33,418 nt of DNA, from contig CAMUZD010000002.1 in assembly GCA_947165115.1 (NCBI GenBank), forward strand, positions 1 through 33,418, given 5' to 3'. Source of the DNA: an uncultured Clostridia bacterium. GTDB lineage: Bacteria > Bacillota > Clostridia > Oscillospirales > Acutalibacteraceae. The translations under genes and the position numbers were made by a program. The notes under the pieces were generated by a model. The model was given only the letters and a program-made list of their open reading frames with translations. It ran no database searches and was not told where the DNA came from. Below, piece by piece: positions 6,641-32,854 of the stretch (positions within the stretch are counted from its first letter, which is position 1; each line of letters begins with the position of its first letter).

Positions 6641-7966
6641 TTAATCAAAAATTTCAGTAACGTATTCGTCTGTGACGACTTCCTCAAATTCCATAGTCTG
6701 AGCAGGATAAACCGGACCGAATTTGTACTTGAAACGAATTTTGCCCTGCTTGATCGCGCTCGCCGGGTTCTTTTCTGCTTCAGCCCAGCATTCACCGCCC
6801 AGAATTCCGCCGTTGAGCTTGATTTCGTTAAGAACGCCGTTGACGGAAGCTGTAACATCCTCAACGAAAGTTCTTTTGATTCCCTTATCCTGTGCCCAGA
6901 GAATACCTGCCGCGATTGTCTTTTTGATCATGTCGGAAGTCCTCTTGACGCAGAGAAAACGCCATTTTTCGACATCAGCAGCCGTGTTGTTACCCCAGAG
7001 CCTGTATGCGCCGCCCTCATAGACAACACATGCAATGTTCTGATTGTTGATGACGTTTGCTTCGCTGCTTTCATCCATAAGATCGAATTCAACCGCCGGT
7101 TCAACACCGACAACTGTTTTGAACTTGTGGTTTGACGGGGAATTCCACTGACCTTCGTTGTAGTCAACGTAAGCAATAAGACCGGCTGTTACCGCGCACG
7201 GATCCACGACACCGTAAGAAGCCACTTTCACTTTCTGAGCGAGATAGTAAGCGTTCTTGCTTGTTTTCAGAGCTTCGCCTTCGTATCCGTATTTCGGGAA
7301 AAGGTAGGTTGCAAGAAGCGGTTCCGCTACCGTTCTCAGCGCGATTTCGATTGCCTCTTTGCTGTCTGCATCGAAAGAGTCTCTGATTTCCGCAAAAAGC
7401 AGTGTCGGAGCCATATTGCAGAGCGATTTCGCCGATTTTAAAGCGTAAATTCCAGTTTTGTCTGTCGCGTTTCCAACGATATTCGCCGCAACCTCTGACT
7501 CCGTTAATTGCGCCGGATTTGATCCGGCACTTGCATCGCCGATTTCGCTTTCACTTGAATCACTAACAACGATCGGCGTTCCTTCGCCGTCTGTGATGAC
7601 ATTGTTTTCGTGATCAGTGAGGTAGACTACTGTTTCGACAGCTTCTTCATCTTCGCTGCTTCCTTCAACCCTGACAACAACCGTGTGTGTTTTCTGCTCT
7701 CCCCATGCCATCTCGATAGCTTGTCTGAGATACGATTTCTTCGACATCAGAGCAACCTGACTTGTCTTTGTAACAAGGACAGGCTTGTTGAGCGGAAACA
7801 TTTCCTCGAATGCGGCGTTTGCGGCATCGAAATCATCCGCAGACTCTTCTTCGCCGTGGTAAGCCGCCGCTGTTCCTACGATACCGTAGACACTCGACAT
7901 CTGGAGCGGAATAACCTGCCCGCCGTCGGTGTTCTCGTAAATTTTAAGTCCGTGTAAAAAACTCAT
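6641..7966 (-). CDS. tail sheath protein (P2 FI-like)
   Basis: MSFLHGLKIYENTDGGQVIPLQMSSVYGIVGTA...; C-terminal region and neighbourhood typical of contractile sheath; contains a palindromic-element insertion at 7503-7537. Confidence 0.88.
   Translation of the reverse strand: MSFLHGLKIYENTDGGQVIPLQMSSVYGIVGTAAAYHGEEESADDFDAANAAFEEMFPLNKPVLVTKTSQVALMSKKSYLRQAIEMAWGEQKTHTVVVRVEGSSEDEEAVETVVYLTDHENNVITDGEGTPIVVSDSSESEIGDASAGSNPAQLTESEVAANIVGNATDKTGIYALKSAKSLCNMAPTLLFAEIRDSFDADSKEAIEIALRTVAEPLLATYLFPKYGYEGEALKTSKNAYYLAQKVKVASYGVVDPCAVTAGLIAYVDYNEGQWNSPSNHKFKTVVGVEPAVEFDLMDESSEANVINNQNIACVVYEGGAYRLWGNNTAADVEKWRFLCVKRTSDMIKKTIAAGILWAQDKGIKRTFVEDVTASVNGVLNEIKLNGGILGGECWAEAEKNPASAIKQGKIRFKYKFGPVYPAQTMEFEEVVTDEYVTEIFD
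7503..7537 (+). repeat. palindromic mini-element (coding, in tail sheath gene)
   Basis: GTTAATTGCGCCGGATTTGATCCGGCACTTGCATC; translated DASAGSNPAQLT. Confidence 0.88.
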
Positions 7967-7981
7967 GTTTTTCTCCTTTTA

Positions 7982-8665
7982 TTATGATCTGGAAATAACC
8001 TGAACTGTCCCCAGACTTACCTTGGGGATATAAGCGTCAATGTCCGGGTTTCCATTGATTGTAAAGCCCAGCCAGAGATATGGCTTCAATATATGTGCTC
8101 CGGTTTCAGGATCTGTTTCGCTCATTATCGCAACTCTACCTGATTCGCGCTTGTTTTGTGTGACAGTGACATTGCCATTACCGTCACATGTTACCATAGC
8201 TTCACCGCCGAAAGAGATGTCATATAATCCATCTGTCTCTGACTGACGGCAAAACATAGCAAGTAGTTTTATCCTGAAAGTGGCTGTTTCCCCTTGAGCT
8301 ACAGTCAGCGAATCGCCTTCTTCGGAGAATCTTAATGCGTCAAGATTAACTGATGGATCGATCAAACTGGGGTCAATTCCATTTAGATCTAAAATAAAAT
8401 CTGTTATAGGAGTGCTGTTTTTTGAATATCCGGTTTGAGTCAGAGGGTAGCATATGTTTTTTTCGACTTGTCTTTTCCATGTCTCAAAATCCTCTTTGAG
8501 TTTAGCGTGATTTGGCACCTCCACAGTTTCGATCGTTCCGTCCGATTTCATTTTTTTGACGGATACGTTTGCCGGGGTTGTCGAAAAAAACATATCCCAT
8601 ATGCTGCTGAGCCAGCTTTCAACAACCGTGTAAAAGTTGTTAATCTTTTTAATCAATTCATTCAT
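7982..8665 (-). CDS. tail-appendage-associated hypothetical protein
   Basis: 227 aa ORF between fibre-like gene and sheath. Confidence 0.5.
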   Translation of the reverse strand: MNELIKKINNFYTVVESWLSSIWDMFFSTTPANVSVKKMKSDGTIETVEVPNHAKLKEDFETWKRQVEKNICYPLTQTGYSKNSTPITDFILDLNGIDPSLIDPSVNLDALRFSEEGDSLTVAQGETATFRIKLLAMFCRQSETDGLYDISFGGEAMVTCDGNGNVTVTQNKRESGRVAIMSETDPETGAHILKPYLWLGFTINGNPDIDAYIPKVSLGTVQVISRS

Positions 8666-8677
8666 TTTGTCTCTCCT

Positions 8678-9265
8678 TTAATTGTGGATTACATAATTTT
8701 TGAGAAGCGTTATTTCTTCTTTGAGTTTGAGGTTTTCCGTTGCCGCTGACGCGAGCAGACAGACAGCTGTAAAATCGACATCCGTCTGCAGCGCATAAGC
8801 CGCATCACTGGTATAAATTGCAGCCGTTTCTGCACTGTTGAACTTAATTGGAACGGTGATCACAAGATCCGTCTGCATATCCGGCTCACTTGCCGACGGA
8901 ATATAAGTCGGCGGGAATTTTCCGATCCATACCAGAACATCGTTGTTGCTTTCGTCTGTAATGTATAGTCCGACCTCTCGGATCGTTTCACCTTTAACCG
9001 CCGCATCCGGAATGATAGTCGCCTTAACCCGTACCGTAGTTTTGGTTGTATCATTCGGATCAAGCGTTATCTGAACACTTTCCACGAGCTGCGTGGCCGT
9101 TCCGTGAAGATCAGTCTCCGAACCGTCGTAAAGGTTCGCGTTGTTATAGTCCGCATCGGTCAGATTCCCGATTTTCATTTTTGAAAATGGTTTTTTGTTT
9201 TCCGGACTCTGCTCATAGCTTGCAAGTAACGCGAGTCCCGAATCTGTGAATCTGCTGTTTGCCAT
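8678..9265 (-). CDS. tail fibre/collar-fibre N-terminal-domain-like protein
   Basis: MANSRFTDSGLALLASYEQ... resembles the N-terminus of P2-type tail fibre proteins; ETIREVGLYI motif. Confidence 0.65.
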   Translation of the reverse strand: MANSRFTDSGLALLASYEQSPENKKPFSKMKIGNLTDADYNNANLYDGSETDLHGTATQLVESVQITLDPNDTTKTTVRVKATIIPDAAVKGETIREVGLYITDESNNDVLVWIGKFPPTYIPSASEPDMQTDLVITVPIKFNSAETAAIYTSDAAYALQTDVDFTAVCLLASAATENLKLKEEITLLKNYVIHN

Positions 9266-32340: not shown

Positions 32341-32352
32341 CCGCTAAGTTTC

Positions 32353-32387
32353 GTTAATTGCGCTGAATTTTATTCAGCATTTGCATC
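32353..32387 (+). repeat. palindromic mini-element (overlaps C-terminus/stop of small membrane ORF)
   Basis: GTTAATTGCGCTGAATTTTATTCAGCATTTGCATC; encodes ...DANAE*. Confidence 0.85.
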
Positions 32388-32567
32388 TTTCACGCCGTTT
32401 GCATCCCACCATTGCTCGCAGTATTGCGGTGCCGGTGAAAATCTTTTCATTCCGCACTCTCTTGCCGTGTCTTTGTCCATGTCTCTGACAACCATATAAG
32501 CCATAAGGAATGCCAGAACCGCCATAAAAATAAAACCGATAATGTTTTCTTTTGTTTCTTTTTTCAT
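32370..32567 (-). CDS. small single-TM protein
   Basis: MKKETKENIIGFIFMAVLAFLMAYMVVRDMDKDTAREC... Confidence 0.55.
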   Translation of the reverse strand: MKKETKENIIGFIFMAVLAFLMAYMVVRDMDKDTARECGMKRFSPAPQYCEQWWDANGVKDANAE

Positions 32568-32854
32568 GCCACCACCTCTTGCGTCGTCTGTTTCCGCAGC
32601 ATGTCATGCGCGGCTTCCTTTGTTCCGTTCATTGCAGCCGAATTTGATTCGGCGTTTTTAATGTTTTTCCTCCACCATTCCGCAAACGGTCCGCTCACAA
32701 ACGCTCCTCTTTCGATTGACTTTAAAATTGAAGTCATCGAGATTCCGAGTTCCGCCGCTATCGCTTTTTGCGTTGTATCGTGCTCGATTAAATATATCTT
32801 GAAGAGCACTTTCCTTTCTTTGATTTCCTTTTTGGTTTTCTTTGCTTTTTTCAT
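32564..32854 (-). CDS. Ner-like HTH DNA-binding protein
   Basis: TTQKAIAAELGISMTSILKSIERG HTH; first gene of the early operon, divergent from the repressor; RBS AGGAGG before 32854. Confidence 0.6.
   Translation of the reverse strand: MKKAKKTKKEIKERKVLFKIYLIEHDTTQKAIAAELGISMTSILKSIERGAFVSGPFAEWWRKNIKNAESNSAAMNGTKEAAHDMLRKQTTQEVVA
32627..32663 (+). repeat. palindromic mini-element, diverged copy (coding in HTH gene)
   Basis: GTTCATTGCAGCCGAATTTGATTCGGCGTTTTTAATG; encodes NAESNSAAMNG. Confidence 0.65.

Follow-up and report, generated by a model that had tools for sequence, protein, structure and literature searches.

Cellular genomes are already known to contain palindromic mini-elements inserted into protein genes. 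The RPE and WPE families of Rickettsia and Wolbachia are short palindromic DNA inserted in frame inside protein genes, where the resulting peptide is tolerated, and the coding palindromes of Methanocaldococcus (cited in PMC2996958) are likewise in-frame palindromic insertions in protein genes. The RPEs of R. conorii end in CGTC (PMC3733652). REP sequences are palindromes of 20–50 bp with stems of 5–13 bp and short loops, form subfamilies with alternative paired stem residues and include intragenic units (PMC3733652, PMC8266576); REPs carry GTAG and CGTC elements carry CGTC (PMC3733652), the GTAG being crucial for the E. coli TnpAREP (PMC8266576). PARCELs are associated with membrane proteins and consist of tandem repeats of 75 nt (PMC2996958). 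Among phages, the SAS and ESAS of Cluster K mycobacteriophages are dispersed repeats near start codons, mostly in one orientation, about half of them with upstream inverted repeats for whose pairing there is little support (PMC3203893).

The repeat analyzed here was noticed in a 33,418-nt stretch of DNA (the window), which is a Mu-like prophage with genes for a MuA-like transposase, a TniB-like ATPase, terminase, portal, XkdF protease, capsid, tail sheath and baseplate. The strict DNA pattern of the repeat is matched by five phage contigs of IMG/VR and by several contigs from MAGs, some of them ruminant, and whole-record searches at E up to 1 gave 20, 15, 10, 6 and 6 matches in the five virus records. 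Among viral contigs, a looser pattern with an 8-bp stem had no match and one with a 7-bp stem returned the same five records only, while cultured phages and plasmids gave no real match. It was the DNA pattern that found the related phages; the transposase protein, used as the query against viral-contig and genome-contig collections, found none. Within the window, the D12-class adenine methyltransferase gene (972-1762) is split into two overlapping ORFs, probably by a frameshift, and the right end (33310-33418) holds tandem repeats of about 43 bp (TTGTCYTGGATTGCTCAAAAG and TTAGGTTGGATTTCCGAAAAGG) that by their appearance are candidate transposase end-binding sites and may well be the end sites of the phage. 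These repeats are unrelated to the element, and the latter was rejected as a Mu-type transposase end site on that ground.

The element is a hairpin repeat of about 49 bases that occupies roughly 10–20 sites per phage across a family of Mu-like phages. Its anatomy is GA-TGC-AART-(stem)-NNA-(stem)-GCA-AYRRACGAARYNNRRGGTNN, with a stem of 7–8 bp and a loop of 3 nt, the transcript-sense sequence being GATGCAARTG-CCGGAT-NNA-ATCCGG-CGCAAYNRACGRARYNNAGNGG. Counted by position over 43 unique copies, the stem has GCAART before it and GCAAY after it; the AT pairs closing the loop are conserved among copies, as is the tail, and conservation ends at both edges of the 49-mer, with no conservation in the flanks. 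Since the tail GCAAYRRACGAARYNNRRGGT is conserved also in copies antisense to genes, it belongs to the element. On folding, three more pairs (TGC/GCA) form outside a 4-nt AART bulge, but these outer pairs are nearly invariant, so that covariation is uninformative about them. In the window, the arm ATCCGGCAYTTGCATC has seven matches with at most three mismatches, all on one strand, against 0.59 expected (0/100 shuffles). Two covariance models, R1 built from the six best copies and R2 from 79 matches, recover 12 copies there, all on the minus strand: the nine listed by the earlier reading of the sequence alone, each at its place, and three weaker ones (27238-27287, 32109-32159 and 24783-24816). 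No Rfam family reached its gathering score anywhere in the window. An intrinsic terminator was excluded, as no T run adjoins the hairpin. The copies and the transposase gene of the carrier phage are as follows.

7489..7537, minus strand: copy in the tail-sheath gene (6641-7966, minus strand), in frame, DASAGSNPAQLTESE (R2 66.7 bits; frame)
13909..13959, minus strand: copy with an 8-bp stem and one mismatch, in the last part of ORF 13870-14223, shortly before ORF 13398-13904 starts (R2 52 bits; context)
14610..14660, minus strand: diverged copy (GCTGGCAT/ATGCCAGC) in the gap between the capsid gene and ORF 14223-14612 (R2 32.4 bits; context)
16343..16391, minus strand: copy in the XkdF-type protease gene, in frame, DANAESNSAQQTES (R2 61.2 bits; frame)
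16766..16814, minus strand: copy in the XkdF-type protease gene, in frame, DANAGSNPAQSTKFK (R2 67.8 bits; frame)
24783..24816, minus strand: weak partial copy close to the end of ORF 24760-25152 (R2 25.5 bits, E 0.009)
27238..27287, minus strand: diverged copy in ORF 26925-27446, in frame, KPIAGYNPTAINGDSGF (R2 42.7 bits; frame)
27443..27491, minus strand: copy directly upstream of the GTG start at 27446 (R2 66.2 bits; empty site in G048:C49)
27546..27594, minus strand: copy beginning at the stop codon of the DUF3164 gene (27593-28207, minus strand) (R2 62.4 bits; context)
30313..32340, minus strand: MuA-like transposase of the carrier phage (Pfam Mu-transpos_C; homologous proteins)
32109..32159, minus strand: weak, decayed copy in the transposase gene linker (R2 37.1 bits)
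32339..32387, minus strand: copy directly upstream of the transposase start ATG at 32340 (R2 62 bits; orthologous flanks)
32614..32663, minus strand: copy in ORF 32564-32872, in frame, NAESNSAAMNGTKEA, upstream of the ATG at 32607 (R2 36.8 bits; frame)

By appearance the element is a very small mobile element belonging to a known general class, of which we found no description in phages. Compared by described features, it shares with the RPE and WPE families the in-frame insertion of a palindrome with a tolerated peptide (25 of 26 copies in one frame), but those families and the Methanocaldococcus palindromes are dispersed through cellular genomes, whereas the element is phage-borne with one chromosomal locus (serC), its other strong copies all lying on phage contigs. 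It is without the terminal CGTC of the R. conorii RPEs, and the texts consulted report no genome-wide strand lock for these palindromes. Palindrome size, stem range, alternative paired stem residues, a short loop and intragenic units are common to the element and REPs; it differs from them in having no GTAG directly at the stem foot, no head-to-head dimers, one orientation only, few copies and no host-wide distribution. Nor does the element fit the CGTC superfamily (terminal CGTC, 8–9 bp stem, 4–5 nt loop): neither foot bears CGTC, the stem has 7–8 bp and the loop 3 nt. Of the REP-like or Rickettsia-type class proposed from the sequence-only reading, what stands is a dispersed, structure-conserved palindromic mini-element of that general sort, but without the GTAG or CGTC tag. 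What the element has in common with PARCELs is that repeats are encoded by palindromic DNA able to move between genes (PMC2996958), although the element occurs mostly as single 49-bp units. ESAS are the nearest phage repeats, but pairing in the element is kept by compensatory change, and copies are found also inside genes and antisense to genes; its sites are not confined to translation starts, since of 39 in all, sense genes contain 16 and antisense genes three. Integron attC sites were also excluded, no R' (GTTRRRY) and R'' (RYYYAAC) pair being seen on inspection of the aligned copies.

In 13 related phage and MAG contigs, all of the 96 copies (96/96) have a single orientation per contig, and when the contigs are oriented by the element they are collinear, save for one inverted gene segment in G048:C49. 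The copies collapse to the 39 independent sites, which include, besides the three inside minus-strand (antisense) genes, nine in gaps with a minus-strand neighbour, the host serC locus among them. Copy density is similar in the two kinds of gene block, at about 0.34 per kb in plus and 0.45 per kb in minus blocks. Because copies in antisense genes keep the genome orientation, transcription is not what sets it: what counts is the strand of the phage genome. The claim that all copies have the same orientation relative to transcription therefore holds within the window and fails as a general rule, given the antisense copies in opposite-strand gene blocks. The plus-strand block 17136-21394 is indeed free of copies in the window, as had been stated; the equivalent block of G045 contains one, in unchanged genome orientation. 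Plus genes have a third-position GC skew of +0.063 and minus genes one of +0.326, both measured on the element strand, and with the coding part separated the strand component of the G excess is about +0.195, as expected for a phage copied in one direction. Mu replicates from left to right, and together with the skew this suggests that the element strand would be the lagging-strand template. In the host genome G346 the serC copy does not fit a strict lagging-strand rule, though it is a single locus: it lies on the C-rich strand, some 23 kb ahead of the GC-skew maximum (the likely terminus).

Sites differ between close relatives. One element is present in G043 and absent from G042 and G044 between a stop and a start codon, with flanks that are ~100% and 97% identical; about 40 bp are missing from G048:C49 at the place homologous to the window copy at 27443; and most of the element is missing from G046:C44 at a site occupied in G041 and G043. 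Each such difference may be a gain or a loss. An ancestral protein sequence present at all sites, which the sequence-only reading had named as a finding that would speak against insertion, is refuted. A private 8-bp stem variant occupies two unrelated sites within one phage, G041 and G046:C16 contain element-in-element arrays and a hairpin deletion, and no clear target-site duplication was visible. A separate observation is that G049:C53 (at 37008) and G042/G044, which are near-identical phages, have different hairpin-bearing spacers in the same stop/start gap, so that such gaps turn over faster than genes.

The hairpin is maintained through paired changes. Among stem cells, 98.4% are paired and 30 are double-changed, compared with 5.5 +/- 1.8 in shuffles (0/500). 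Taking one hairpin per site, and adding a few orthologs whose stem has changed, gives 259 cells, of which 256 are paired and 19 double-changed, where the double changes in 5000 shuffles had a mean of 4.5 and never exceeded 11. These excesses bear out the compensatory stem changes first noticed by eye, and an instance at a single locus is the window copy at 32339..32387, where GCTGAAT/ATTCAGC corresponds to GCCGAAT/ATTCGGC in the G041 ortholog. Paired changes could also come from quasi-palindrome correction without selection.

Within genes, 25 of the 26 sense copies with the standard 7-bp stem share one frame, although all three frames can be open, and read as the peptide DA(N/S)AGxNPAQxT; the loop contains a stop codon in none of the 26 coding copies, compared with 28 of 39 other copies, both counts entering orthologous copies separately and hence overstating independence. 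The peptides occur in sheath, protease and transposase genes, and the transposase homologs P0037 and P0039 have extra in-frame element peptides where the window transposase has none. At gene borders, many sense intergenic copies place their RRGGT tail 0–7 nt before a start codon, and the window copy at 14610..14660 provides a purine-rich stretch ahead of the ATG at 14612. Beside minus-strand genes, most copies begin 11–20 nt ahead of the start codon and lie clear of the native ribosome-binding site.

The host RecN encoded beside the phage in the window (1-711), whose reading frame shifts near its end at about position 630, is only 28% identical to the RecN of the window's own bin (G000:C36), which marks the window contig as misbinned. 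Its identity is 97% to the RecN of MAG G049, 95% to G047, 80% to G048 and 62% to G046 (bacterium UBP6_UBA1209); judged by these sequences, the real host belongs to this uncultured, mostly ruminant-derived lineage. Owing to the misbinning, element counts in the window's own bin and its order are uninformative, and the host copy number that had been proposed for checking must be read from the real host family, whose chromosome has a single locus. Ten of the 19 genomes of this family carry elements, and outside phage contigs all strong matches lie directly after the serC stop codon and before the serC terminator, antisense to serC. The locus is filled in at least eight species, with stems that differ among species and two tandem copies in G346, and it is empty in G047, G340, G341 and G344, with SerC 98–99% identical. 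A search for further host copies through the core CGCAAYRRACGAWG gave stretches of which all 20 inspected look like coding coincidences, one of them (...PIAMDEGLRF...) being what we take to be EF-G/EF-Tu-like sequence. Two weak matches, G346:C3:283412 and G337:C16:27967 (L109, L110), are not the element; they are tandem 39-nt hairpin units inside a host gene, in which a CCCGAATAACATTCGGG hairpin plus AAAATGAACGATGC repeats the design of the phage element with a different sequence.

On balance, and with moderate confidence, we regard the element as a non-autonomous palindromic mini-element, borne by one family of Mu-like phages, that spreads as a folded single strand with its orientation fixed by the strand. 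The folded strand would be copied into new places during one-way, left-to-right replication of the phage, and strand-specific insertion would make orientation follow replication. Selection would then retain insertions that are harmless, as linkers read as DANAGxNPAQxT or in gaps after a stop codon, and those that are useful, as the tail may give the following gene its ribosome-binding site. A bolder proposal, which we hold only tentatively, is a strand-specific single-stranded DNA mini-transposon family specialised on phage genomes, its orientation dictated by replication direction, mobilised in trans by an enzyme and with ends that serve also as a movable ribosome-binding site and as a linker peptide read in frame. 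HUH, Y1 and reverse-transcriptase families are not among the Pfam matches listed for the phage proteins (25 families per pooled scan), and a motif search yielded no Y1 candidate in 1.19 Mb of the host G346, about half of that genome; the RAYT/Y1 transposase suggested earlier as a partner was not found in either set. It is unlikely, if still worth weighing, that the copies are instead functional sites in phage DNA (for example for lagging-strand priming, partition, or a repressor or nucleoid protein) that need polarity and are gained and lost by selection rather than selfish spread. The single orientation in all phages, the spread of copies over the whole genome, with 10–20 in the longer phage records, and the conserved tail and loop-closing AT pairs would suit such sites, but their positions differ strongly among close relatives, the host chromosome holds the element at one place only, and coding copies may drop the pairing yet keep the peptide, as at G045 3862; the arms, moreover, vary freely if paired, which argues against a simple sequence-specific site.

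Passive remnants, that is, an old repeat that recombination dispersed and whose stems stay perfect through quasi-palindrome template switching, not through selection or mobility, are a rather improbable account. They would explain the tandem and partial copies, the hairpin deletions and the nearly perfect stems even of coding copies, whereas near-identical variants at unrelated sites and the clean presence/absence differences point to recent copying. Quite improbable, too, is that the elements are translation-start cassettes acting at the RNA level, in the manner of the ESAS of Cluster K mycobacteriophages, with a hairpin and a Shine-Dalgarno-like tail before genes. The many intergenic copies whose tail abuts a start codon speak for it, as does the G042 gene, which without the element has no obvious SD; against it stand the 16 of 39 sites within sense genes and 11 more phage sites in or beside minus-strand genes, where the genome orientation is the same and the tail conserved. 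On these antisense and intragenic copies, a pure translation-start signal was rejected as the main explanation.

With its 10–20 copies in a phage of 34 kb, its polymorphic sites and its fixed strand, the family would make a compact system in which to watch insertion directly, and it shows a route by which phage proteins gain linker peptides and phage genes ribosome-binding sites. The contigs of G041, G043 and G046 also contain a second, longer palindromic repeat (CCTCACCCC...CCCTCTCC...GAGAGGGG...GGGGTGAGG), examples of which lie at L043 ~12180-12250 and L050 ~2110-2170, and related phages have other sequence at these places.
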